NCBI GenBank assembly: GCA_033558025.1
Contig: JAUCEF010000014.1
Coordinates: 3,596,001-3,660,000, forward strand
DNA from: Phytophthora sp. 'mugwort'
Taxonomy: Eukaryota > Oomycota > Peronosporomycetes > Peronosporales > Peronosporaceae
Direction of reading: 5' to 3'
Length of the DNA: 64,000 nt
Shown here: positions 1,241-45,300 of the stretch, one piece after another
How positions within the stretch are numbered: the stretch's first letter is position 1
Layout: every line of letters begins with the position of its first letter
Notes under the pieces: model-generated
The model's database searches: none
Seen by the model: the letters and a program-made list of their open reading frames with translations, nothing else
What the model was told of the DNA's origin: nothing
Translations under genes and position numbers: made by a program

Positions 1241-2896
1241 TGATGGCCATGCAGCCGGCAATGCATCCCTCGGTGGGCAGACCCCCTTGCTGCTGCGGGA
1301 TCGATCACCTCTTGCCCGCTGATTGCTGGGCACACGGTCTCACCGCGTAAAGATGAAGCTGTCAATGACAGCCTGTCATTGCCACTAGGGCTCCAGTGGC
1401 TCCACAAGATACGGGTCCGGCCGGCGTCTCTACTGTATGATATAATATCCTCCGCGTTTTTTTTACCCTTGGTGGCGTAAGCGCGGACACGATTACCAAG
1501 CCTCACTGTTGGTTCCGTACCGTATATACATACCGTATTGTACATATATAATATGTTACGTAGCAATGTCGAGTCGACATTGAAAACTGACCACACTAAA
1601 CGGTGATGGCGAGACCCCGTACCGGGAGAGATAACGTCAGGACGGTAATCCACATCACCACGTAGACTTCGAAAGCAAAAGTGATTGGCTGCTCAGATTC
1701 ATCCCCCTGGATCTTTTGTTCGCCACAAGGAGATGCCTTCATGACGTGGTCGACGGTGTGTCCAATAGCCGCGAAAGAATTCGGGCCGGACACCTCGACC
1801 TGTATGTTCATCAGCCTCAAATGGGTCCCAGGGAGTGTCCGTGCCAAGGGTAATGTGCATGATCGCTCGGGCTGAAAATGCGAGTGACACTGTAGCGATA
1901 CCGCCATGAGCTCGCTGGGTACTTTCAGACAGGGTGGGAGGATTATGGAGCGAAAAATCCTTAGTGCACATGCGACATCTGGATCGTTAATCGGTTCGTC
2001 TACCGAATTTTGACATTAAATAGACTACATGTAGTCTGCTTCTCTCCCTAGCGAATCTTGATAGTGGGCAGATCGGAGGGATGCGGATGACGTATGATGT
2101 TGGAGGTGCGGTAGGTGCTTCAAAGACACGACGCCCCCGCGTTGGAAACTGCTTATACGGTGCAGTGTAATGTTCAAGGCAACGCCCGATAGCTACACTG
2201 GTACTGCAAATTGCTCGATAACGCAAACCTTGATGGTCATCGTTGGTTTCACTTAAAAATTCGATGCACCGAAATTGCAAGAAAGGTAAACGACAGCGCA
2301 TTTTTTTCATTTTAGGGAGTATTGCTGAGTGAGAACAGGGCGAGTCGTCGCTTTCTGAGTGCAGTTACATGGGCAAGCTATAATATTAACCATTCATCGA
2401 CCCTCCTACAGTATGAGTTTGGAATGCACTGGCCATCTGGTCCGCGCTGAGTTAACGCTTGGATTTCCAGCAGACAATCCAAGCGACGTGATTCATGCAA
2501 GTCCCTTGTGGGTACAGCAAAGTCACACCGGTCAACAAACTACACAAGCACGACAATCGACAGCAGCCGAAAAAAGACACCGAACCGTGCCGTACAAACT
2601 AAATTTGATGAGTGGTGGGTACAACCAAACCCAGGTGTGCAACCAACTTTCTGCTGGTCTAGCGTTGCAGGCCACGTTTTGTACCGTCCGTCTCCGGTAC
2701 CATCAGCGGCGTCGGCGTCATGGCCTGCTGGTGGTCGTAGGCGGAGCCGCTGTCCGTTTTTTTGCCGCAGCAGTGACTGCTTCGATCAAGGATCTGGTAC
2801 ATGTGTAGCAGATTTCCCTGCTCCCCACCTCAACTGCGGTGGGGCCTCAACGCTGCCTCACCATGGCCAGGCCGCCAGTGCGTTTGACATGACATG
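1241..2896. other. Divergent intergenic region between the two isocyanide synthase genes
   Basis: About 1.65 kb separates the two initiators. No convincing coding sequence is seen. Open frames here lack homology to anything I recognise. The region presumably holds the regulatory DNA of both divergent genes, possibly shared. It includes AT-rich stretches near 1430-1570 and around 2000-2050. No operator could be assigned. Confidence 0.5.
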
Positions 2897-2912
2897 GCTC
2901 ATTCCTCATTTC
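2897..2912 (+). promoter_or_regulatory. Oomycete initiator (Inr) of the right isocyanide synthase gene
   Basis: GCTCATTCCTCATTTC matches the oomycete consensus GCTCATTYYNCAWTTT at 15 of 16 positions. It lies 58 nt before the ATG at 2970. This supports 2970 as the true start and argues that the open frame extending upstream to about 2508 is not translated. Confidence 0.75.
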
Positions 2913-2969
2913 ACTCAACAAGCCTCAAGTCCTCCTCCGGCCTCCGACTCGACCAAACACACCATCGGA

Positions 2970-4853
2970 ATGGCGCCCAACCTCGACCAACACACTTACA
3001 CGCAGGACGCCAACACGAGCCCAGTCTTGTGGACCGAAGAGCAACACACCAAAGTCTGGGAGCATTTCCTCGACAAGTTTGCCACCATCCAAAGCCGCTT
3101 CCCCTCTCCAATCGATCGTTTCAACGAGGAAGGCAAACACAAGATGGAGAAGATTGTGATGCAACTGATCGAGCGCCGCGCTCCGATTACGCTGGTGCTA
3201 CCGTCGTTCCCATTCAAGTCGCCAAACTCAACCGACAAAGTGCTGGGGAAACTGCCGGACCGAGCCGAAGAACTATCAATGGAACGTCTTGAGCACTTCT
3301 GTCGTGAAGTGGAAGAGGCATATCCCCCGGGATGCAAGATGGTCATCTTCAGCGACGGCCGTGTCTTCAACGACTTGCTGGGAGTGAGTCTGAGTGATCT
3401 ACGTGCTTTCGAGGACGAGTTGCTGTCAATGGTGAAGGAGGCGGACCTCAGTCACATCGTCTTCGACTCCATGGACAATTACGTCAAGAACGTGGACAAC
3501 CCCATTCCGGAAATACTCGAGCGATTCAACGTGCTGCACATGGATTTCGACGCTCGTATCAAGACGGAACCGGAAACCCGCAACATGTACTGCTCGTTCT
3601 GCAAGTTCCTCGAGCGTGATCTCGCACCGCGATGGATGGGTATGTCTCGCACTGCTGTGAAGCGCAGTTGCGGTAAGATCGCCAAGCAAATGATGCACCG
3701 CAACGTGGGCTTTTCAGCTTTGGTCGACGAATCATATCCGGATGCGCTCCGTATCTCCATCCACCAGTACAACAATGCCGGTCCCAAGTTTGGTATTCAC
3801 CTTATCCCACAGAAGTCTGGCAAATGTCGTACCCCCTGGCACTCCGTCGTTTGTGAGGACCTTGATGGAACACCGCACACGACTGACCTGAAGGACGTGG
3901 ACACGGACAAGTACGACCTGGTCTATAAGCGCGGACGCAAGTGGGGATACGTCGAGCGACCATCGTGCACGCCCGAGGAAGTGGCCCAGTGGGTCCCGCT
4001 GCATGTCGAGCTCATCCGCACCAAAATGTTCATCATCGCCCAAGCCAAAGAGGGCTTCCCGGCGCCATCTATCATGGACATCCCGCGCGAGGCCATTCGA
4101 AGCCTTGTGCTCAAGTATGGTTTGGTGACGCTGCGTGGCTTCAAGCAGGACGACGACTTTGAGACGGCGACCGAGCGCTGGGGAGACGTGCTGCAGTGGC
4201 CCAAGGGGACCTTCGCGGGTGGCAACGTTTTCGACATCAAGACGGAGGCCGGCACGAATCTGCCGGCACAAACGCGCGAGGCATTGTCGTTCCACTACGA
4301 CGGCATGTTCAAGAAGAAAACATCCGAGTCCACCGAGCTGGGCGACCCGCCCGTCTTCATGTTCTTCCACTGTGTGGAGGCCGCTCCGCCTCAGGACGAC
4401 CCGAAGCATGGTAACACCATCATCACGGACACGCGCCGCCTGCTGTCGGCATTGCCCGACTCCACCGTGGAGCGCCTTAAGAACATCTCGCTCACGTACC
4501 GCACGTCGCTTTTCGGGTATCAAGATCGCGTAAACACGTCGCCCGTGGTGGCGACGCACCCGATTACCGGAGAGTTGGCATTGCGCTACCACGAGCCGTG
4601 GGGTCCTGAGAAGACCAAGTTGCACCCGACGTACGTGACGTCGGTGGGATTCGATCCGGAGACGAACCAGAAAGATGAAGACGCTGACTTTGTGGCGGAG
4701 ACACTGCAGCCCCGTCTGTACTCGGACGAGTTCGCGCACTGGCACCAGTGGGTCAAGGGCGAATTCGTGGTCATGGACAACATTTCACAGCTGCACGCGC
4801 GCTCGGTGGTGGGCTTGGGTAACCGCCACATGCGTCGTATCCACTTCAACTAA
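2970..4853 (+). CDS. Isocyanide synthase-TauD dioxygenase fusion protein, 627 aa
   Basis: The N-terminal half (about residues 25-340) is a PvcA/DIT1-type isocyanide synthase, with FSDGRVFNDLLGVSL around residues 127-141. The C-terminal half (about 375-627) is a TauD/TfdA-type non-haem iron dioxygenase. Its iron ligands are visible as the H-x-D motif in SFHYDGMF (H442, D444) and a distal histidine in QLHARS (H609), followed by R611. In bacteria these two activities are separate proteins (PvcA and PvcB): the first makes an amino-acid isonitrile and the second oxidises it, often to a vinyl isonitrile. The fusion suggests channelled synthesis of a small isonitrile, possibly metal-binding or toxic; the product is inference. 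The frame stays open upstream to a GTG at 2508, but the ATG at 2970 matches the divergent paralogue (MAPN) and lies just after an initiator. A single exon, no signal peptide, GC-rich codons and no damage are visible, so it is probably functional. Confidence 0.93.
   Translation: MAPNLDQHTYTQDANTSPVLWTEEQHTKVWEHFLDKFATIQSRFPSPIDRFNEEGKHKMEKIVMQLIERRAPITLVLPSFPFKSPNSTDKVLGKLPDRAEELSMERLEHFCREVEEAYPPGCKMVIFSDGRVFNDLLGVSLSDLRAFEDELLSMVKEADLSHIVFDSMDNYVKNVDNPIPEILERFNVLHMDFDARIKTEPETRNMYCSFCKFLERDLAPRWMGMSRTAVKRSCGKIAKQMMHRNVGFSALVDESYPDALRISIHQYNNAGPKFGIHLIPQKSGKCRTPWHSVVCEDLDGTPHTTDLKDVDTDKYDLVYKRGRKWGYVERPSCTPEEVAQWVPLHVELIRTKMFIIAQAKEGFPAPSIMDIPREAIRSLVLKYGLVTLRGFKQDDDFETATERWGDVLQWPKGTFAGGNVFDIKTEAGTNLPAQTREALSFHYDGMFKKKTSESTELGDPPVFMFFHCVEAAPPQDDPKHGNTIITDTRRLLSALPDSTVERLKNISLTYRTSLFGYQDRVNTSPVVATHPITGELALRYHEPWGPEKTKLHPTYVTSVGFDPETNQKDEDADFVAETLQPRLYSDEFAHWHQWVKGEFVVMDNISQLHARSVVGLGNRHMRRIHFN
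3888..4126 (+). repeat. Partner of the near-identical tract at 1..239
   Basis: These 239 nt cover the linker between the synthase and dioxygenase domains (from LKDVDTDKYD to YGL). They match the opposite-strand paralogue with one difference, whereas flanking coding sequence of the two genes differs at many positions. Confidence 0.9.
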
Positions 4854-24060: not shown

Positions 24061-25545
24061 GTATGCCGCCGTCACACCAATCATGATGCAGCTTAGATGA
24101 TGATGTTATCTCTGTCTGCTTTACTGTATCATGTAATTATTAGCAATAATAGCTACACTACGTAGCCATGCAAGGAAAGCTCGTGATGAGAACGAGACTA
24201 GATTTAGCCTGCATTTTGCGCTGTCGAGGAGGAGCGTCCGCCATCTTCCAAGTGCTCAAGTTGGGATTTCGAACGTGATCCGTTTAAAAGGGCGGGACAT
24301 TAAAATAGCTAGAAAAGTGGGTGCGAAACTGTTTCGAGAGGGATTTGTTTGAAAAGGGTACGCGTTCTTTTGGGTTTCACGTTCTGGTAGAAGTCTTAAT
24401 CTGCTGCAAAACGATTGCCGAAGCAACTGCTCAAATTCGACTCCAAAACGACAGAAAGCATATCCGAAAGTTGAAGGACTTATACTAGAATTTTTCGAAT
24501 GAGGCATAGTGGACCTTCTCTTCTCGCAGAACTTGTCAGCTATCGGACTTCGTAATCGTGTCCACAAATGTTGATGCCCGCTACCGCCCCGTTTCTGCGA
24601 TGTCTGTTCCGTTACCGTGTCCTCAGGAATTGACATCCTTCTTCTGTCAACGGAGTCTTCCAACCACTAAACCTGTCAGCGACAGTCTACGATGTTTGCA
24701 GCGATTGATTATAATCAGCCTCTGAGAGACTCGATTCTCTAGCAATTCCGACAAACACACCAACGTGTGGATCCTAGCGTTCGTTCAGCTCGTTCGGGGT
24801 TGCCGCCATGGGCAGCTGCGCTACAGCGACACGCCATGGGTCATTTTAAAATATCCTGTCGCGCAAGATGCTGTCTGCACATTGCGCTTATTAAAAATAG
24901 ATTCAAGTGGAGGGCCGTGTGCATGGGTGGCAAATCTGCAGCGGTTGCTTGGTCTCTTGGCTCTCTCTTGAAGCGGCAACAGGTCCTGCTAGTCGTGACG
25001 AGAGTACCCTACCGCCAAGCGGCAGAGTTGCACGCCTCCGAGCAGGAAGAACATAGGTCGGATAGCGAAGTGCGAGCTCTCGTGCGACCAATGCTGATGG
25101 TGTGCTTTATGGTAGTGGTGGTGGTCCTAGGTTGCCTCCTAGCAGCATGACGTCTAAGTGCTGCGTTTCAGCAAGTCCGCTTACATTCTTTCTCCTCTGT
25201 CGACAGTACGTAGTGACAGGTGCTACAGTAGCTGCAACTGCAGCTGCAGTTGATGCTACGAGTTCTGTCATCTCATGTTTTTCGTGTCTACCACATCGTC
25301 GAGACCATACAAACTCCAAGTGAAGTGTAGGGTGGGACGGAGGGATATGTTTTGCGCTGTTCGTAACCAGCTGCTTTGTAATCAGCGACATGTCCGCAGG
25401 ATAGGCCGAGATAAAGCGGCGTTAGACAGCCTCTGAAGCCCATACAGGACCCCCCAGTGTGTGCCGCCCGATTCCTGACAGCAAAAAGCGCCGATGCACA
25501 TGGGAAGCCACTTCTCGATTCACCTCGATCTATATCTACAGTAGC
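24061..25545. other. Unassigned region upstream of the Cys/His repeat gene
   Basis: Contains an open frame at 24767-25150 (plus strand) that starts only at GTG and ends in a hydrophobic run (MLMVCFMVVVVVLGCLLAA). It resembles nothing I know. The last few hundred bases must hold the promoter of the gene at 25546, but no initiator matching the oomycete consensus was found. Confidence 0.35.
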
Positions 25546-26226
25546 ATGAACAGCCTCAGGCTACCTTCGCTGACGGTGTTCGTTAACTTCGCGCTGAGCC
25601 CGCGCAGTAATAGCCTGCGTGACTTGGCGGCGACGCCTATGACACCCGTGGTGAGCTCGCCCAAGTTCTCGCTGGCCTTCATCCTGGACGACACCAAGGC
25701 GCTGCTGTCGCCTATGAGTCCGCCACGCGTCCAGGGATCGACGCAATCATCGCCGCCCAAGCAACAGCGCAGGAGCCCCAAGCGCAGACTCACGACCAAG
25801 GAGAAACGTGCTGCGCGCCAGTGCTGTATCGATGACTGCACCAACTACACCATCGACCGGGGCCTTTGCTTCCGCCACGGCGGCGGGAAGTCGTGTTCCA
25901 AGGCCGGCTGCACCGCCAGCGCCAAGCACCGCGGCCTCTGCTGGAAGCACGGCGGCTCCACGCTCTGCACGGTGGACGGCTGCACGCGAGGCTCCAAGTC
26001 GCGCGGTCTCTGCTGGTCGCACGGAGGTGGCACAAAGTGCTCGGTGGTCAACTGCAAGAAGACGGCCATCTCCAAGGGTCTGTGCTGGACGCACGGTGGT
26101 GGCAAGCGATGCGCGTTCGACGGGTGCAAGCGGCCGGCATCGCGAAGCAAGCAGAACTTCTGCTCTACGCACCAGCCCAAGAAGACCAAAGACGTCGGCA
26201 GCATTGTAAGGGCTGTAGACCTGTAA
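25546..26226 (+). CDS. Cys/His repeat (WRKY19-like zinc repeat) protein, 226 aa, intronless
   Basis: A five-unit array of the form C-x4-C-x9-C-x3-H-G-G fills the C-terminal two thirds, with units such as CTRGSKSRGLCWSHGGGTKC. The spaced cysteines and histidines probably bind zinc. The family is common in oomycetes and is sometimes annotated as WRKY19-like; its role is unknown, and DNA or protein binding is inference. Upstream of the repeats is the motif SPKFSLAFILDD, which corresponds to HKFGLPFILN in the paralogues, then a basic stretch (QQRRSPKRRLTTKEKRAARQ) that may act as a nuclear localisation signal. The frame is open to a GTG at 25459, but the ATG at 25546 gives a length close to the paralogues (234 and 217 aa). 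Both introns of the paralogues are absent. Codon use is GC-rich and there is no damage. Confidence 0.85.
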   Translation: MNSLRLPSLTVFVNFALSPRSNSLRDLAATPMTPVVSSPKFSLAFILDDTKALLSPMSPPRVQGSTQSSPPKQQRRSPKRRLTTKEKRAARQCCIDDCTNYTIDRGLCFRHGGGKSCSKAGCTASAKHRGLCWKHGGSTLCTVDGCTRGSKSRGLCWSHGGGTKCSVVNCKKTAISKGLCWTHGGGKRCAFDGCKRPASRSKQNFCSTHQPKKTKDVGSIVRAVDL

Positions 26227-34053: not shown

Positions 34054-34770
34054 TTGCGTGGACATTTTTATTTGCCAAAGATAATCGAATCCTGGAGCCT
34101 GGGAGCCGCTCACCTGCTTGCATGCTGGAGATGGCGGGTGGCGCATATTGATGCCCTCAGTACTGCTACGGAGGCACACCATGCCAGTGGACTCGCTGCA
34201 CAGATCCGGCACACCCATGCGGATATTACTCGGGCCATATCCGCACGGGTATCGGATCCGTTAGGTTTAAAGGTTAGCAGAACCATTTGTGCTCTTCTAG
34301 GAGACCACTGGGACGGCTCAGATACAGTGGAGCACACCTGCGACGTCTGGAGCCTGCTCTTTTTTGCAGGTGGAGCACCGCCTCTGTCAGGAGAAGGAGG
34401 ATTGTGGCTATTTAATTGCGCAGTTTCAACGAAGTACGGGCGCTTGCAAGGTGCTATACAAGGTGATATACATGAGAGGCACTCAACACATCGGGGGGAC
34501 AAAGTCACTGGCGTTGGCAGCACACCATGGACTAATATGAGGGTTGCCATTATCAATCGGCTCGGCTGGCCCCCGGTCCATGTGGTTGGGGAGAATGGTG
34601 TACTAGTGCGGCAGCATGCGACGAGAACCCCGCCACGCATCCAACGCCTAACAGACACGTACTGGAAGACAAGACGTTTGGCGGATGCACTGTATGCACC
34701 GCTGGATGACGCAAGTAGTATATACTGGCACATTACGCCGGCAGTTTTTTCCCTTAACATATGTTTCTAA
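34054..34770 (+). other. Unidentified open reading frame, 238 codons, ATG-less
   Basis: The frame starts at a TTG and runs to a stop at 34770. The opposite strand is also open for 216 codons (34760-34110), which makes it hard to judge which, if either, is coding. The plus translation has DPLGLKVSRTICALLGDHWD and WLFNCAVSTKYGRLQGAIQG, matching no family I can name. It lies about 220 bp left of the integrated virus and could belong to it or to an unrelated element. Confidence 0.3.
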
Positions 34771-34986
34771 AGGAGAGTAGGTTTAATCGTTCCTAATACC
34801 CAGCTGGTGTTTCTAACCAAATAACCAATTCATAACCCCAGAGCGTAAGGAGTCATTTAACTCATAATAACGATGTCTGAGATAGGTTAAAGCTCCTTTA
34901 GCGACAGTACCGTGCACCTCCCTAATTAATTAATTTTCTCAAAAAAAATAAAGGGGCTATGTATATAGATGCACTCAGCTGATACC

Positions 34987-35288
34987 ATGTCGAACGAATT
35001 AACTTTTGGAAAATACAAGGGCACCCAGATCGAAAGAAGTCTATTGTTCTGATCCTGGTTATTGTCGATGGATATTTAATCAACCCAGTTAAGTATTGGG
35101 GAGGAGATCAAAATATTCTTACACACGAAATTCCTGACTGATGATAATTCATATATGATGACGTGGGGAAATTTCGAGGGAAGTCTCTCAAGCAAATCAG
35201 TCGAATTGATCCCAATTACATTAACTGGTTTCGAAAGAGTCAACTTGTTATTAAGAAGTGTCCTAAAATCTTAGCAGAAGTAAACTAA
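34987..35288 (+). pseudogene. Two-repeat FGKYKG-domain viral protein
   Basis: From the ATG at 34987 the frame reads LTFGKYKGTQIER, then shifts to DPGYCRWIFNQPS. A second unit follows, VGKFRGKSLKQISRIDPNYI and NWFRKSQ, ending at 35288. The F-G-K-Y-K-G...D-P-x-Y-C-x-W pattern is the small domain often attached to exonucleases and common in large DNA viruses. Two frame breaks split it. It lies 22 nt from the end of the capsid gene, tail to tail. Confidence 0.55.
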
Positions 35289-35310
35289 AATAAGCGTGTA
35301 ATTTGATTTC

Positions 35311-37017
35311 TTAAGCTGTCGTATAATCGAGAACCTCACCGGCTAGTCTATCGACCGTTAGCTCTTGTTCGCTCACCAATAATACAAGCATGTAGGTGCC
35401 CTGACAACCAGCGTTTACACCGCGAATCTGAATAGAGGTGGGGGCATCACTACCGGTTAGGTGACTAACGTCCGCGATGAGCACGCGGTTAGCTAGATAC
35501 CATGCCTGGTAGTCAAAAAGTCCATTGACCAACGCAGGAGTCAGATCACCGTTGATCAATCGCTGAAATCTTGGCAATTTCGTTCGTGAAATGATGGAAA
35601 TCGTAGTCATGGCTAATAGCAAAGACTTGCTGGGAGCTGATACGAACATTAAAGTTGCGAATGCTCGAACCGGGATAGACCGTCCAAGGAGCCGAATCAA
35701 ACGGGCTCTGGAACTCTTGAACAGCTGCAGAAGCAAAACTACTCGTCTGCTCAGCGAAAGGAAGTAGAATGACATACTTAGCGTTCTTAATCGATGTGAT
35801 AGCTGAAGATCGAGTGCTGAGTCGATTTTTTACCAATGCCAGCTCGTTGGTTAATCCACTGCGCATAGCAGTCATTAAATCGAACCTTCTTGACTGGCTT
35901 TGAGATGATCGCTTGAGGGTTCTCAAGATATACAAACGGTACGTATATACGTGAAATGGTGAATGACATATATGTACCATCCACAGTAGGCTCGAGGCCA
36001 TTAACGACAGCACCCCAAGCAATACTGATACCGGCAGAAGCAGCAAGGGTTCCGGCCATGGGATTACCGTGGATGAAGTAGAGACCGTTACTGGACAAGT
36101 ATTACCACTCGCAAGAGTAGTGCTGGTTAGAGACATACTCTTTGAAGCATTGACAGCGATGATAGAAGTACCCTGATTGACACGGACGCGAAGTCGAATT
36201 TGTGGGTTGGCCATTAAATCGAGATCCTTAAAGATGGAATGGAGATCATTTAGCTTAACCTTTACCATATATTCCACGTACCCATAATTGCGTTAGCAGT
36301 AGTAGCACCGGCTACAGAGGCACCACGCGCCAGTTGATTTGATATTGTGATGGACGCTGCAGCTCCACCAAGCGAAGTCTACGAAGTGGAGAAAGCAGAT
36401 CCAGCGTTAGGTGGATTTGACAACAGGCGTCTTACAAGACCATCATTAACGACCGAGGGACAACCTCAAGGACCAATTGTCGCAAAGGATGATGAGAATG
36501 CAGTGGTATTAGTCTATCCATCGCCCGTAGTTGATGATGTGACTGAGCTGTACAAAGCCGACTGAGCAGCATCCGGATATAGGAACGACTCAGCTCCGTG
36601 CTTCTCAACATACTGAGGACTGTAGCTTGTCTGAGCGCGAATGTTGTTCCAAAATAGTTTATAGTCCGCCATACTTACAATGGTTTTGCTGTTGAGTTCA
36701 AGCGACATGCTATCGATAACATTCCAGTTACCACATTTGAGCGTAGCACAGAAACGATTCGCAACAGCTGTCTGGGCAGTAGCACCATTCTTCATACTCA
36801 CTTTGTACGGAGCATAATGTAAGCATCACGAAGGCAAGCAAACCCCTCTGAACCGTTAAGCTGGGCTGCTCATCGATGGTGATAACACCATTCAGATACG
36901 ATCCTTGATTAAGATCGATCCCAAATGGCACGCGTTTACCGGAAGATAATTGATATCTGGGTCGCTTTGGAGCGAGCACTGGTACAAATACTGATCGGAT
37001 AGTTGAGTTTCACTCAT
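35311..37017 (-). pseudogene. Major capsid protein of a Polinton-like virus, frameshifted
   Basis: The gene would start at the ATG at 37017 (MSETQLSDQYLYQ) and end at the TAA at 35311, about 569 codons, a normal length for a double jelly-roll capsid protein. Conserved pieces in order are: NGATAQTAVANRFCATLKCG and NWNVIDSMSLELNSKTIV (36790-36670), KVKLNDLHSIFKDLDLMANP (36265-36200), GLEPTVDGTYMSFTISRIYV and PFVYLENPQAI (36000-35910), NAKYVILLPFAEQ (about 35785-35745) and DVSHLTGSDAPTSIQIRGVN (about 35475-35415). They sit in three frames, with changes near 36890, 36560, 36100, 35830 and 35560. The family call is by pattern and synteny. It is dead as it stands. Confidence 0.75.
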
Positions 37018-37027
37018 TGTTAAATAT

Positions 37028-37447
37028 ATGGTTTCTAATATACTTTCGTCAAAATTTAAAAATTATTTGAGCGATCGTATTAAACCAATCACCAGCGACC
37101 ACGATCTTATCGAGCTTGCAGATCGAATTGGAGTACAAATGGATGGAATATTTGAATCGAATGAAATATCGAAACCGCTTCCAAAAATAGGTACATATTT
37201 GGTCTTATTAAGGCCTCCTAACCTTGATGTAGGTCATTGGACAGCTGTTCATAAAGGAGAATACTTCGATAGTATGGGCGAAGCAGCTCTTACCAAGTAT
37301 GGAATTGGAAAGTACAATCCCAAACAGTATCAAGGTACTTATGGAGACTATTGCGGTATATGGTGCATGCTCTGGTTGTATTGCAAACGAAACAATAAGA
37401 TTGGACTATTGAGCCGATTCAAAGACTTGAATTTAACCATTCTTTAA
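37028..37447 (+). CDS. Adenovirus-type cysteine protease of the Polinton-like virus, 139 aa, intact frame
   Basis: The catalytic layout of the adenovirus maturation protease/Ulp1 fold is visible: His70 in VGHWTAV, acidic Asp81 in YFDSMG, Gln102 in YQGTYGDYCG and the nucleophile Cys109. In related viruses this enzyme trims virion proteins during particle maturation. The length fits the small proteases of Polinton-like viruses. Its ATG lies 10 nt from the divergent capsid start. The frame is uninterrupted and all four catalytic positions are kept, in contrast with the broken neighbours. Whether it is expressed cannot be told. Confidence 0.85.
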   Translation: MVSNILSSKFKNYLSDRIKPITSDHDLIELADRIGVQMDGIFESNEISKPLPKIGTYLVLLRPPNLDVGHWTAVHKGEYFDSMGEAALTKYGIGKYNPKQYQGTYGDYCGIWCMLWLYCKRNNKIGLLSRFKDLNLTIL

Positions 37448-37474
37448 ATAATAAATCAGTCATGAAATATAATC

Positions 37475-38231
37475 ATGACATTAAAAAAATAGCAGTTCAG
37501 CGTCAGTTCCAGAGACAAAGCTCAAGCGAGCGTTCAAGACCGGAACTCTATCCTTAAATAAATATGAGCTGAGTGGTTCTGGTGCTACGCTTCATCTTCA
37601 TCCTGAATCATACGCTAAAGCTCTTCGAGCTAACAAATCTGATAAAGGAACGCGTTTAGCTACCACACACAAAGAGATCGGCTATCCGTTTAGGCACATG
37701 CAAGGAGGAGGCATGCACGGGACGAGTATATGGAGTAAGATTTGGGGAGGAATCAAATCCGCTTTCAGATTTGATAAAGACTCAAGGATATTTTCTCGTG
37801 TTGCTAATGCAGCTGTTCCCGCTCTTGCAACAACCGCACTCGGAGCTCCACAGGGTGCTATTCCAGCAAGCGCTGCTATCCGCTCTATGACTGGTATCGA
37901 TTTGTATGATAGCGACAGTGATATTAATGATCTTGGGGGACGTCTGACCATCGCTGATGCTAAGCAAGGAGCCAAACGTGCTCTCGCTTGCACGAAGCGT
38001 AATAGTATCCGTAGTGCTGCAGTCGATGCTGGAGAGAAATATCTTCTCTCTAAGGCTGTTAAGCCTGCGCATAGTGATTTAATCAAATCGCTTCGTGGTG
38101 AGGTTCGACGTCGCTATGGAGTAGGCGTTGCCAAGCCAAAGTCAAAGAGGTTTACAAAGGGGTACCAGGAGGCGAAGGATCACATGGCTAAGAAGTTTAG
38201 CCATGTGATCCTAAGGAGTTTAGCCATGTGA
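37475..38231 (+). CDS. Possible virion core/minor capsid protein of the Polinton-like virus
   Basis: A frame is open from about 37484 to the TAG at 38231. It reads TKLKRAFKTGTLSLNKYELS, then MQGGGMHGTSIWSKIWGGIK and VPALATTALGAPQGAIPASA, and ends in a very basic tail (RGEVRRRYGVGVAKPKSKRF). The Gly-rich amphipathic block followed by an Ala-rich segment and a basic C-terminus resembles small internal virion proteins of adenovirus-like viruses, but this is inference. The first in-frame ATG is at 37698; the ATG at 37475 is out of frame by one base across a run of seven A, so the start may be damaged. The 3' end is part of a large inverted duplication. Confidence 0.5.
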
Positions 38232-38283
38232 TCCTTCGCCTCCTGGGACCCCTTTTGCAAACTTCTTGACTTTGGCTGAGGGG
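38131..38283. repeat. Inverted duplication of the core-protein gene end
   Basis: The left arm (about 38131-38190) ends in CCAGGAGGCGAAGGATCACA and TGGCTAA, and the right arm (about 38218-38280) begins TTAGCCATGTGATCCTTCGC. The inner 26 bases pair perfectly and the outer part (CAAAGTCAA, AAAGGGG) with a few mismatches. A third partial copy, TTAGCCATGTGATCC, lies in the loop. The left arm is coding (KPKSKRFTKGYQEAKDHM), so the right arm is an inverted copy of gene sequence. Confidence 0.9.
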
Positions 38284-38527
38284 ATCCTTTAAAATGTGAG
38301 AAAAAAATTGAGTTTATTGTTTTGGTCTCTAAAAGTAGGAGAGGAAGAGCGTGCGGGGCGAGTTGATGAAGAAGGCTTCTTGGCGAGGTTGCAAAACCAA
38401 AACTGAGTGGGATTGATGTCGTTATTGTTCTCTACCTTCCTAGCTCATTTCTTCTACTGTCTTTGCTACGGTGAGTTTCTAATCCCATCAGGTATCCCAT
38501 ATGTATAGTGGGAAGACGCAAAAGTTG

Positions 38528-38600
38528 TGGTCAAACCGGACTCGAACCCGCTAACTGCTGGCTCGCATAGAGAGACTAAACCAGCTGAGCCATAGAAAGC
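38528..38600 (-). tRNA. tRNA-derived sequence with perfect pol III A and B boxes
   Basis: On the minus strand, TGGCTCAGCTGG (38592-38581) fits the A box TRGCNNAGYNGG, and GGTTCGAGTCC (38548-38538) fits the B box GGTTCGANTCC. The acceptor ends do not pair and the T-stem has a G-G mismatch, so a working tRNA is unlikely. A SINE head or tRNA pseudogene fits better. It lies inside the virus, between the core and penton genes. Confidence 0.5.
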
Positions 38601-38789
38601 ATTTGGTCTAGTAATCATGAATGCGTATCCATACCAAAACACCATAACTCACGCAAACCCACACATGCACAACATATGCAAACCGGCACTTCAGCACACG
38701 CAACATTACCTGCCAGCAGTCTCAGCAATAGCATGATCGACACTGACGTATCGCGAAATTTAATTTTCTGGTCGTTTTGGTTATAGATG

Positions 38790-39571
38790 CTAATAGTAAT
38801 TGCTGATCGCGAAACCATTATGACAATTCATCCACGCATACTGTGATGGTTTATAGTTGATCAGCTGACCAATACTGGCATCGCCTCTATCAAAAGCACT
38901 TAGAATATCACCAGATGCAACGTATTCATTTTTGATTAGATCACAGCGAACGATGTATGAACTGGTTGGGTGGATATGCGGGATGATATTGGATAGTTGA
39001 GCACTTGCCATTGTCGCTGAAGTAGCCGGATATGTAGCTACAGTAAGCCCAAGTACCGAACCAATGCAGTACTATTGATGATTAAACGGGGAACGCGAGT
39101 GGTAGTTCACAATCCAGTACTAGCAGCCGAGTATAGTCCAGTAGCAGGTCTTGTGTATCCAACTGGAAGGCTCGAAGGAGTAGGAGAGAAATCTATCAGA
39201 GCTGCGCAATAGACACTGTTCTCAGTTAGTTCGATATAGGCAACATTGTTTCCAGATCCGTCATTAAGATAGGCATCTGCATTAACGAGAGTCTGGATAC
39301 TTCTGTTGATATCATCGTAGCTGTAATATCCATCTGGTAGTGTTATACTGATCGTAGAAGCTATTGCAGCCGTCGGAACCTCGAGTTGAAAGGTTGTGTT
39401 TTGGAAATTAATAGAATCGATGTTGTACTCACTGTTAAGGAGACTGATTGATTGAATCGCGCACGCAACATCGCGAAAGTCAGCTGCCGAGCCAGGAAAT
39501 TGGTATTTCCATGAAGAGTCATATCCGTCTGCTACGAGGTTCGTGCTATCGATCTTCAAGAACCTCGTCAT
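38790..39571 (-). pseudogene. Penton-like minor capsid protein of the Polinton-like virus
   Basis: From the ATG at 39571 (MTRFLKIDSTNLVADGYDSS) the frame runs through WKYQFPGSAADFRDVACAIQ, NSEYNIDSINFQNTTFQL and SITLPDGYYSYDDINRSIQT to a TGA at 39107. The rest continues in other frames: RVPRLIINSTALV and then SNIIPHIHPTSSYIVRCDLI, ending at 38790. The PDGYYSxxDIN signature and the spacing are typical of single jelly-roll minor capsid (penton) proteins of Polinton-like viruses and virophages. One in-frame stop and one frameshift break it. Confidence 0.7.
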
Positions 39572-39591
39572 GTTGAAATATATAATTATCG

Positions 39592-40286
39592 TCAAAATTT
39601 AGGTGATATCATAATCTTCAGTCTTAATTGGCTTATCGAAGTTGTATCTGATTTCCCCCTAGCATAATCGATGAGAAGCATCGGACCTTTTTGTTCAGTA
39701 ACCTTGTTATAATAATAAACGATTGACCGATCATCTACGCCCTTAATATTAAAATCTTTGACAACCGACTGTAAAGCTCGCTTTGAATTGGCGTTTAAGA
39801 TTGCTACGTATTCCGAATTCAAGCGTATCATCTTATCGGTAGCAAAGCAGCTGTGGCCTAAAAATATGGTGCTCAACTTGAAATGACGTCCTCGAGTATA
39901 GTAATGTGAGAAAATCTTCTTCTGGAGTAGATTGTCGTTACTGTAGTCGTCTAGCTCAGGTTTGTTTGAGCTCATGGGTGTATGACGCACTTGATCAACT
40001 TTCGGAGGTGTGTCTGGATCAGCAAAGTTATGAAATTTTCAAGCTTGTCGTGGCGGTACTCATAAAGTTCTTGGTGGGGATTGCGAACAATGATCGTTTT
40101 TTAAGGCGAGAATATGCTGGGAGAATGCATGAGAATGAACATACATAGGTTGTTCTTACTGCTGAACGAAGGGCCAAGGACAACCATTCTAAATAGCTTT
40201 TTAATGTCAAGCGCCGGAATATCACCCATTCCGGCAGACTTGAATTTTTCCGGCAACGAAGCGCGATAGTTTGGATTAACGCTCAT
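39592..40286 (-). pseudogene. Viral DNA-packaging ATPase (FtsK/HerA, A32-like)
   Basis: The ATG at 40286 begins MSVNPNYRASLPEKFKSAGM. A Walker A region follows at residues 38-46 as GPSFSSKNN, altered from the usual GPSGSGKTN, so nucleotide binding is probably lost. A Walker B-like ELDDYSND is near 39960, and a later block YYTRGRHFKLSTIFLGHSCF and MIRLNSEYVAIL matches the sensor part of the family. The middle (about 40110-39990) is in another frame. This ATPase pumps DNA into the capsid in related viruses. It lies 20 nt upstream of the penton gene on the same strand. Confidence 0.75.
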
Positions 40287-40335
40287 GGTCGCGTCTTTAA
40301 ATCGCTGGATCTATATATATTGAGATACAACAAAC

Positions 40336-41843
40336 ATGAGTTCTGGTTTCTCGTATCCTCAGCCAATATTCATATCACCATCTTCAATCCTGCATTCTAT
40401 CTGTCGTTAGACGCCAGTGGTTATCTAACATACGAATATGCGCAGACTTTATACATTCGCAAGAATGATTACCGACTTACATACATCACCGGAATTACTC
40501 CCGGTGTAGCAGCACAAGGATATCTCTTTTTCCAGGTATTAACAATGATATCGGTGGCAATGGAACACATCTTGCACTAGCCTGATTATTAATGGACCCG
40601 CCGTGTCGTTTGCTCCTGTTTACATTCTCGCATCACGCCAGGCAGAGGTGCTGTAAGCAAAGCTCTTCTACTTGACTCGACTCGTTCATGTTCAAATACA
40701 TACTCTATGACCTACGACCCCGGAACGGGGTTGAATGTACCTACTTTTCAATTCGGTGGAATCACACTAAACCAAAGCTACGACGTTAGTATCACGGAGG
40801 GAGGTGCTATCACATCGAAAGCACATGTCTTAAACTCTACAAAAGATTACAGTGGGATGCGTAATCTAACGTGTTCAGGTACCGTAACGGCTTCTACTTC
40901 GTTAGATTCACCTACATTGACATGCGATACAATCAGTAAATCTGGGACTCAAATCATGAATGCAACAGCTGTAAACTTGAACCCAACGACGCTTCAGTTA
41001 AGAGGTACTACAATCTCCACTTCAGCCACTGAGATTAACTACCTATCCACGATATCACCCGGAACGGTAGGCAACAGCAAGGCTATAGTCGTAAACTCAC
41101 TTGGTAGTATTGCTGACTAAATGCACTGTCTGCTGTTAGCGTAAGTACGAGAGGTAATATTACGGCGGGTGGATTGCTTAATGGATTCCTGGCGTACGGA
41201 AATCAAACGACTATAACGACACTTGGAGCTCTAACGGAGCTTGGGATAAACGCCTCGCCATCTACTGAGTATTTTTCAATTAAAGGATCGGACTTTTCGT
41301 ACCTGGACGGTTCATATACCCGAATGTTAAGATTTTCGGGCAGCAATGTCACGCTGGTAGAATTTCAAGTTGAGGTGAATAACGGTAGTTTGGGAACTTC
41401 AACGAACGCCTCGTGGATTGGAAACATAACGGCAGCGATCTTCGATTTGGTACAGGTAACTCAACTCAAATGGTACTGAAAGCATCAGGACTGCTTGATA
41501 TTGGTACAGTATCTCCAGCGGCCGGTGTTCATTGTACAATCAATCATCATTTACTTGGGGAGCGGGAGAAACTACTATGTATCGGATACGCACGAGTAAT
41601 GGTACTGTTGAGTCAGCATTGGGTCCTATTACATATCCAACTATGAGACGATATTTGCCGGATGCGTTGTTTGCGACGCCATTGTCATGTGCAGTGATAG
41701 ACGATTATAGCGATATATCGAGGATGTGTAACACTTCGTGTAAGGATGTACTCGAGAGTAGCTTCCCAGTCGATGATACCGACAAGTTCACTTTGCTTAT
41801 CGTTTCGAACGGTGATCCGAGACGAGGCGATGATAAAGCTTAG
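40336..41843 (+). pseudogene. Fibre-like virion protein of the Polinton-like virus
   Basis: Begins at the ATG at 40336 (MSSGFSYPQPIFISPSSILH) and shifts frame early (NPAFYLSLDASGYLTYEYAQ). It then runs through 40707-41120 with TLTCDTISKSGTQIMNATAV, ISTSATEINYLSTISPGTVG and NSKAIVVNSLGSIAD, a repeat style common in fibre or spike proteins of large DNA viruses and Polinton-like viruses. Two later pieces (41174-41479, 41532-41843) are in other frames. It starts 49 nt from the divergent ATPase start. At least four breaks. The attachment role is inference. Confidence 0.5.
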
Positions 41844-42120
41844 CATCAGGGCCGAGAAAGTACATATATCGTTTCGCTTTAGCATCAGATAGCAGTAACG
41901 GATCAAACATTAGATGAAGATCCCATGATGCGAGATTAGGCTGGAGTTTGAACAAATCGACTATTGCCTCGTAAGTCTTCATCTGGCGATTCTCATCGAC
42001 AGTCGACATAGCTGTAGCCATCTGAGCCGAATTGTTCTCTGATGTAGTTGTTTGAGTTCCAGTCGATACCATGCTTGATGCTATCGGCATTATACTCGCT
42101 TCGTTATCTGTGGCCCACAT
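41844..42120 (-). pseudogene. Small unidentified viral-region protein
   Basis: The minus frame 42120-41797 reads TYEAIVDLFKLQPNLASWDL and HLMFDPLLLSDAKAKRYMYF and ends inside the 3' end of the fibre gene. It starts at a methionine before WATDNEASIMPIASS. I do not recognise it. Its compact fit suggests it is part of the virus. Confidence 0.35.
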
Positions 42121-42253
42121 CGTCTCCGCATATCGTTGCTTGGATGATTATCGATATAACGCAACCCGTTCTATTCACCTGTATCCTTGTGGGCGGCGCT
42201 TTCGTAGGTGTCTATCGCCTGGAGGTCTGCCACAGTCATTCGAGTATAGAGAT

Positions 42254-42322
42254 ATTTAAGGGTGGGTGGAATCGAACCACCTCCTTCGCTTTCTGAAGCT
42301 CTTCCATTAAGCTACATCGGTT
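42254..42322 (-). tRNA. tRNA-like sequence at the right edge of the virus
   Basis: On the minus strand: TAGCTTAATGG (A box), a D-stem GCTT/GAGC, a CTTC/GAAG anticodon stem and a perfect T-arm GGTGG-TTCGATT-CCACC (B box GGTTCGATTCC). The acceptor stem pairs only partly and the anticodon loop (AGAAAGC) lacks the usual T33, so it is probably a tRNA pseudogene. A run of 12 G follows immediately at 42323-42334. Confidence 0.5.
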
Positions 42323-42334
42323 GGGGGGGGGGGG

Positions 42335-45300
42335 TAACGACAACAACATCGCAGGGGATACTCTGCCGGAGTGCTCGACGGGAAATTAGCGACCACAGTT
42401 CTTCGTGGACGCGACAACCCTCTTAGAAATACCAAGGACACAATCCCTCTACTCACCAGGCCACAATCACTAAGTTCGCTGGGCAAATGACGCAGTCAAA
42501 ACCGCACGTGTGACACTCCTTTGCAGACGTAATTACGCCTGCTACCTATCAATAAGCCTTTACGAGGATATTTTTTACGGACCGTATACCATTTTACAAA
42601 AGCCTCCACAACTTGGTGCGATATATAATTCTGCGATATGGTCAGATGCCAGTCATAGATGCGGCGACGGCCGGAGTCATCATGGTACGGTTAAAACCGA
42701 GCTGGGAGTAGACTTCGCCGCGAGGCGGAACGGCGAAGCACATTTGCGCGATGCTCTTATCAGATAGCAGTATAACAGTCACAAACATAATATAGTGTGA
42801 CGTCTAAATAAGTTTCGCTAAGATGTCGTCAATTAAATGCGTGTCGAGTAGCGCTCTCCTCAGGCCGAGGTGACCACTCAATTGCACCATGTCCTCGATT
42901 GGTGTCTGCCTCCGTGAGGACATATCATCAAATAAGCTGCGGCGGGTCACACATATGAGAAGCATGCAGCTTCCCAACGGTGTCAGAACGTTCATCAATA
43001 TTCTTGCGAGCAGCGTATCCAACATCATTTTTTTCAGCTTCTTCTTGCGTTGGTACTACTGGTCTCCCGCTTCGCATAGTGGTTCTGTTGTCTGGCACGA
43101 CAAGCTGCAGTATATGTCGTGGCGCAAATCAAGCGGATGCCGCCACAACATGTTTGAAAATATGACCACAACTAAATATTTTTCACAGGATATCACTATT
43201 CCGGTTGGTTTTGGGAAGTCTCTCGTGTGGAATAAAGTTATTGCGACTTGGATTGATGACTAAATGGCTTTCGTAGCATACCGACAAAATGGTTTTTTTT
43301 TGCTTGCGGAAACTTCTGTAATACATTGCCTACACCGAAGGTTGAGTGGTTGATTGTCCGTCCTAGAAGTGTCGTATTATTTTTTTTTGGCCTATAAATT
43401 CAAATTTTTGCGATAGCTTTCCGGTGATATTACAGACCTATCGGAGCAGATGCTGGCTATATTTTGTTGGTGACGCTCTAGCCTATAAGCAGCAACTAAA
43501 AATATTGGAACGACTCTTCGCGTTGTGACTTGTCATTTTCTACTAGCTGCCAAGGATCTCTAGCTCATACTCGAATCAGAGAGAAACCATCCGATGTCTG
43601 TACGACGCGGGACTTCTGCCTCCCTGCCGCTCCGGTTTTATCTTTTTGACGAGCTCGCTGAAGCCGAAGATGTTAACGCTGGGATGCTCTCCTCAGCGAT
43701 TGTAGAGCAGCCTCTTATTCCCTACATGCGCTTCCACATTGAAAACGTATCCTGACGCGAACGCAGACGAGGACTTTAGATTCACATGTTCGGAACAAAA
43801 ACGGCTTGCAACCGTCATGGACATTTTTTATGTGTTCAGCACAGCCATAGCTGACCGTACTCAAGGTGTGAAGCCCTATCCATGTTATGCTCCCGGATAT
43901 CCTATCCAGGAAAGCTCGCTCGAATTCGCGAGCTGCTCGTAAGAGCGGATTTGCCCTGCTCTTAGATAATCACGGAGCTGTGTATGAGTGTGCTGCACTT
44001 TATCTTTCACAGCTCTCTAAATTAATGTTGTGTCCTTATTGCTATCAGTTTCTTGCTGAACGAGGCGTGGAAACACACGCTCTTCTATAACTTCCGCGTG
44101 TATGCCGAGCGCCTTGCGTCCTACGTTCAGGATGTTACAAATAAAAGAAGTGTCGTTGTCAAAAACGTCTCCATGTTTCAAGACGGAACCCAAGCCTTCA
44201 TCGGCCGGTCGGGAAAGAGGAAGTAAAGGTTATAGCGGTACATAGTGCTATCGACTGCATTCCAGTAGGAGATCGCGAAAAACATCGAAGGTTTGTTACA
44301 GCGGTCATAAGCGGCGCCATTGCCTGAACTACCACGGCGTATGCACCCCGATGTTAAGTCGGTTTCTTTGTTCCAGGAGGTGTAATCTGCGCGCTAACGC
44401 GCTATCATTTCCAGCATTGTGCATATTTATCTTTGGACCGGTTGAAAGACAGCTTCATGATTCTATTATGATACGTCAAAGCATGCTTCTATCTTACCTT
44501 TCAGACACCGATTGTGCAGCGGCTGGGGGTGGTAATCAACAGTTACGGAGTTGATGAGATGCTGGGCGGTCCTTTCAAAATTCCCAAGCCGATATGTGAA
44601 TATCCCGTAAACGATAACCAACACGCGCTCCGAAAGGTCTCTATTGGACAGATTTTCAGACAGTCGAATCGGCCACAAATCCGGTCTCTCCCGGTATGCA
44701 AGGTGCCCGGCGTCGCATCCAGATGACAGATACGTTGTGACCAAAGCATACTAGGCCAACATGGATGTGTTACTTAAACGGAGCCTACAACTGCTCAATC
44801 TAGCTAAACTCGACGTATTTCTGAGGGTCGGCATGGTTGGGGCGCGTGCATGTTGCGGAGTGTCAGCGCGGTTGTTTTGGATGTCGTCGCAGAGGCTGCG
44901 TACCGAATGCATTCTGCCTTCGTGACCTCGACGAAGGTCAACAGGCTCGGATGCGTGCCCTAGAAACGTTCTGCCAGGTCACGATTGTTCTTTTCGAGCG
45001 GGTTTTCGTTCTGTTGACGAGGTCTAACCCACTGACAACCAAGCCTGAAGTAGGACCAGAACTGATCCAACTTTTGCTTTGCGTTCTGGTCATCAACGAC
45101 CAAACGAACATACCGAATTCCCTACCGAAATTGAGATGAGATGATATCAGTTGTAAGATTCGAAGACGATTTCTGGAATGTACCTTCTTCAGAATTTCGG
45201 GCTTGGGAACCAATCATCATGTCCATGTCTCGCGTCCAAGATCTGGTCTTGTGGGGTCTTCAGGTCGATCATTTTGCGTCGAGGAGCTTAATTAAATTGG

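Follow-up and report, generated by a model that had tools for sequence, protein, structure and literature searches.

A probable decayed and truncated left half of an integrated Polinton-type virus in a Phytophthora genome that holds many copies

Integrated elements with capsid genes of the Gossevirus group are known from oomycetes. PMC7805220 reports that four such elements carry both an RVE integrase and polymerase B, that three of the elements with inverted repeats are flanked by target duplications of 5–7 bp, and that the capsid of the Phytophthora infestans Polinton is assigned to the Gossevirus (GKS1) group. PMC10120064 reports as many as 299 capsid copies in a single oomycete genome, and PMC12220804 describes fibres ending in a Peptidase_S74 (S74) domain as widespread in Polinton-like viruses. 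Here we analyzed a 64-kb stretch of the Phytophthora sp. 'mugwort' genome (G000:C14:3596001-3660000, hereafter the window; the genome has 86,260,535 bases in 154 contigs). An earlier reading of the same DNA, hereafter the original prediction, had placed an integrated Polinton-like virus in this oomycete window, an assignment that is borne out. The element spans window positions 34714 to about 41731 (7.0 kb) and is, very probably, the decayed and truncated left half of an old integrated Polinton-type virus, one of many copies. Oomycete elements of this type are already published, and the window copy adds a member, not a new lineage.

The locus is like the Gossevirus (GKS1) group, as described in PMC7805220 and PMC10120064, in its oomycete host, its integrated state, its terminal inverted repeats and its cysteine protease, which many members of the group have; it is unlike the group in that the window copy has been cut short and carries broken genes. 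In keeping with the stramenopile hosts of the group, the named relatives of the capsid (from Phytophthora and Plasmopara, including P. infestans proteins such as PITG_18493) and of the protease (from Phytophthora, Plasmopara and Lagenidium) were oomycete proteins. The link to Gossevirus, whose defining capsid gene is of protein cluster PC_0014, would run through annotated Phytophthora proteins, including those of P. infestans, and through the placing of oomycete capsid genes in that group by the two papers.

From left to right, the element holds an end repeat, an ExoX-like_C gene (+), the capsid gene (-), the protease gene (+), a gene with an MQGGG motif (+), a probable penton gene (-), a packaging ATPase gene (-) and the first part of a fibre gene (+), all tightly packed on both strands as predicted (Table 1). 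The gene at 35314-37017 is, judged by its alignments, the major capsid protein gene that had been proposed at this place. Its whole length was covered by tblastn alignments of six database proteins, in three pieces, and in the first piece the identity was 62–69% for five of the six and 46% for the sixth. Proteins of this family measure 535–602 amino acids, most of them about 572, and metagenome relatives reached down to 45% identity among the matches listed (120 of 203). No relatives were found in scans of the viral_contigs collection. A double jelly-roll fold is predicted for the capsid protein. With its capsid gene broken, the window copy is not expected to form particles of its own. None of the 21 copies compared (20 fetched and the window) kept the capsid in one frame, the fetched copies having been picked for likeness to the window and being biased towards decayed ones; the nearest of them was 90% identical to the window in the capsid region. 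The genome also holds open-frame capsid genes, since six of the nine genome matches covering all 572 residues of the relative were free of stops.

The element belongs to a large family. Matches to the DNA of the virion block were found in at least 86 genome stretches (40 of 243 candidates scored), to the capsid region in at least 53 (40 of 192 scored) and to the 572-amino-acid capsid relative in at least 94 (76 of 497 scored), all of these counts being lower bounds. Nine of the 20 copy alignments started at window 34713-34714, and the left flanks beyond 34714 showed no shared sequence among the 20 copies compared. The end repeat had at least 41 genome matches (40 of 99 candidates scored). Terminal inverted repeats, which the original prediction had proposed to look for, were found: nine copies had facing ends 15.3–20.6 kb apart with such repeats. 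Target duplications of 6 bp were exact in seven of the nine and had one mismatch in the other two, compared with 0 of 72 mispaired left and right flanks within one mismatch; the rule fixing the right ends for this comparison was set after the ends had been inspected by eye. The inverted repeats and target duplications of about 6 bp expected of a Polinton/Maverick are seen in whole copies; the window copy has the left end alone.

A further locus of the family lies on C12 at 1.95–2.76 Mb (L052), where an array of near-identical units carries a piece of it. Four units are spaced at about 26.4 kb and are 100% identical (rounded) over 3,000 bases, and further related units are present. An Rfam search of 6 kb of one unit gave no match; it covers these 6 kb only, and ribosomal DNA elsewhere in the unit is possible.

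The right halves of other copies hold the genes that the window lacks. In copy L012/L029, we found polymerase B (PF03175 at 26.9 bits, just over its cut-off of 25.8), an RVE-type integrase (NCBIfam IS481, E 7.8e-14) adjoined by a chromodomain (28.5 bits, cut-off 25.1), and a weak lysozyme-like match below its cut-off (PF16754, E 0.0066). Polymerase, integrase and chromodomain were absent from the window copy: blastn of five copies against the whole 64-kb window gave matches only in their left portion and at the terminal repeat. The copy matches run out at window 41729-41731, next to a separate repeat that starts there, and in one of those copies an S74 match follows at the cut point, which indicates that the window copy was truncated inside the fibre gene. 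The original prediction had noted that no polymerase or integrase was recognized, leaving either a truncated copy or a novel lineage; because the right halves of other copies carry these genes, the gap is explained by truncation.

One could still suppose that the window copy is complete at about 7 kb and represents a short, distinct lineage of viruses that are virophage-like or depend on a helper and have no polymerase or integrase of their own, as the window itself has none. We give this scarcely any credence, as the end repeat stands on the left only, the cut interrupts the fibre gene at a point from which another copy continues into S74, and related copies that have two ends and flanking target duplications measure 15–21 kb. 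A novel lineage without polymerase or integrase was accordingly rejected on the truncation, the gene content of the right halves and the two-ended copies of that size; related whole copies in the same genome have genes for polymerase B and an RVE-type integrase, and the capsid family occurs in annotated Phytophthora. A virion gene set similar to that of the element is also found in virophages (Maveriviricetes), but no match to a virophage turned up in any search. The whole copies are like Polinton/Maverick elements in their length of 15–21 kb, inverted ends, 6-bp duplications, polymerase B, RVE-type integrase with chromodomain, capsid, ATPase and protease, whereas the window copy differs in having neither the replication and integration half nor the right end, and in its capsid of the oomycete family.

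Changes were compared by codon position on parsimony trees built for seven stretches of coding sequence (capsid, penton, ATPase, MQGGG gene, two fibre parts and protease; 12–21 copies each). Third positions took 57–68% of the changes on internal branches and 40–51% of those on terminal branches (p 1.3e-18 to 1.0e-3). In a separate comparison for the capsid gene, the changes common to the window and its nearest copy numbered 22, 17 and 75 at codon positions 1–3, and those in the window alone 25, 21 and 19, with a third-position filter that left 423 third against 533 first positions. On the trees, the window's own changes were 26, 28 and 27 in the capsid and 3, 4 and 3 in the protease. The virion genes were selected between insertions, and at least the capsid and protease genes of the window then drifted. 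The case for neutral decay is clear for only some genes of the window copy, namely the capsid, the protease and the MQGGG gene.

Given this purifying selection, the family behaved like a virus, or at any rate depended on its virion genes, until the individual copies decayed. Conversely, copies might have spread inside the genome as transposons that carried the virion genes unused, and the many copies with target duplications, together with the C12 tandem array, in which duplication of host DNA also multiplies copies, are in favor of such a process. We consider it unlikely, because capsid, protease, ATPase, penton and fibre were under purifying selection between insertions and the 20 copies compared have independent left flanks; on internal branches, substitutions did not fall equally on the three codon positions. 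The virion gene set might also have been kept by the host as a domesticated defense against large DNA viruses. Endogenous relatives elsewhere reportedly give such protection, many copies are present and the window copy keeps an open protease frame. Domestication is nevertheless very improbable here, as no unbroken frame is left for capsid, penton, ATPase or fibre and the window's own capsid and protease changes show no constraint.

The protease gene, predicted as a maturation protease, was confirmed as an open frame whose family alignment shows an H-D-Q-C pattern, the four residues being kept save for gaps in partial relatives. One P. sojae relative has a UniProt name that begins 'Ubiquitin-like protease fami', and the phage collection gave no match to the protease. 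The neighboring MQGGG gene was found by pattern search in 11 of the 21 copies, with MQGGG in six lines, MNGAG in one, and four lines that start downstream of the motif. Its product may resemble adenovirus protein VI, and the motif presumably fits the consensus of adenain-type protease sites. The MQGGG gene may encode a membrane-active minor protein that is cleaved, as happens in adenovirus, by the protease encoded in the element, and the family may have spread between insertions through working virions rather than as a capsid-less transposon, with capsid, penton, ATPase, protease, MQGGG gene and fibre under purifying selection; we hold this combined proposal tentatively, at a little short of an even chance.

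In its intact form, the element would be a linear DNA of 15–21 kb copied by its own protein-primed polymerase B. The A32-type ATPase would package the DNA into the capsid, which the cysteine protease would mature; the fibres would be trimmed by their S74 chaperone domain, and the RVE-type integrase would insert the DNA into the host chromosome, leaving 6-bp duplications. Gene order, ends, duplications, the gene content of other copies, truncation, decay and selection between insertions are observed here, and particle formation, replication and mode of spread are inferred for the intact form.

Several results weigh against the interpretation of the element as a Polinton-type virus that was selected and then decayed. 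Searches of Pfam and PDB sequences with capsid alignments gave no credible match for the capsid fold. The penton matched nothing in Pfam or NCBIfam, and against PDB sequences it had two weak matches alone, with E 0.036 (MS2 coat) and 0.96. The polymerase match of a second copy was 22.0 bits, below the cut-off of 25.8 that the first copy just exceeded, and the integrase's RVE core (PF00665, E 4.1e-6, 27.4 bits) did not reach its cut-off of 32.6. In the penton (10, 9 and 26; 26/45) and the ATPase (11, 13 and 24; 24/48), changes particular to the window likewise favor third positions, perhaps because the nearest copy is rearranged there.

Table 1. Features of the element in window coordinates.
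Feature	Position	Strand	Basis
Left terminal inverted repeat and element end, begins AGTAGTA	34714..34923	+	Copy alignments; found in reverse orientation at the opposite end of other copies
Small gene with two ExoX-like_C repeats, broken	34987..35290	+	Counterpart in copy L052 matches PF20600; broken window frames
Major capsid protein gene, broken	35314..37017	-	tblastn alignments; six stops, at least two frame changes
Cysteine protease, Ulp1/adenain type, 139 amino acids, open frame	37028..37447	+	55 relatives; conserved H70, D81, Q100, C109
Minor virion protein gene (putative), MQGGG motif then amphipathic stretch	37485..38228	+	Open frame; far end altered by the inverted duplication
58-nt inverted duplication	38134..38277	.	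Both arms in the window alone, of the copies compared
Multi-copy insert of about 395 bp, short interspersed nuclear element (SINE)-like by eye, later insertion	38329..38723	.	Six other genome places at 94–95% identity
Probable penton (minor capsid) gene, broken	38724..39571	-	Position, conservation, third-position bias
Packaging ATPase gene, A32 type, broken	39592..40286	-	Pox_A32 match of the sister copy L012 piece; window frames
Fibre gene start, broken, cut before the S74 chaperone domain	40336..41731	+	S74 in other copies

Several genes in Table 1 were recognized through their counterparts in other copies. The ExoX-like_C counterpart in copy L052 (100 amino acids) matched PF20600 over two stretches (E 6.6e-21). 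For the ATPase, which had been predicted at 39592-40286, the piece from sister copy L012 matched Pfam Pox_A32 (E 4.2e-5, 23.6 bits against a cut-off of 22.8), and the piece from a second sister copy gave no match. The gene at 38724-39571 is labeled the probable penton gene from its position and conservation. The L012 counterpart of the fibre gene matched S74 (E 3.2e-8, 34.2 bits against a cut-off of 22), so that other copies end this gene as do the S74-ended fibres of Polinton-like viruses in PMC12220804, unlike the window gene, which is cut before that domain.

The original prediction had seen capsid, penton, ATPase and protease together as a complete virion module at 34987-42334. Capsid, protease and ATPase held up; for the penton, a conserved gene does lie in the right place, but no search confirms it. 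The module is not complete, with the capsid, penton and ATPase frames broken, the fibre cut off and an insert at about 38329-38723. The block is real, but 34987 is the start of the ExoX-like_C gene, and the element itself begins at 34714 and ends at about 41731.

The insert was absent from the other copies, whose sequence continues directly across. The hairpin formed by the inverted duplication was rejected as a conserved element, as other copies have one arm only. To the right of the element lie other repeats at 41733-42156 and 42172-42690. A transfer RNA (tRNA) match at 42257-42321 (-) in a many-copy repeat scored 30.4 bits against an Rfam cut-off of 29, and ARAGORN found no tRNA there; tRNA-directed insertion was rejected, as this tRNA-like stretch is part of a different repeat beyond the end of the element.

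S74 matches also occurred on C18 at about 1.57–1.64 Mb (L053, L054, L055), where one open frame of 41,472 amino acids, sampled in parts, has two of them and is a candidate giant fibre-like protein. It contains a 2,700-base repeat, with 13 stretches at 98–100% identity spaced 2,700 bases apart, all in frame. A literature search on oomycete endosialidase turned up nothing beyond the S74-fibre work of PMC12220804. Elsewhere in the window, a 781-amino-acid frame at 2508-4853 (+) matched DIT1_PvcA (E 2.1e-81) and TauD (E 7e-31), resembling a fusion of an isonitrile synthase and a dioxygenase, and a 255-amino-acid frame at 25459-26226 (+) matched WRKY19-type zinc fingers in three stretches (PF24906, E 1.1e-26).

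Taken in its place, the window element is one dead and truncated representative of a large family, in which the Polinton gene set is found in whole copies. A modest general point comes from the comparison of codon positions, that virion genes were still selected between insertions in this host genome.

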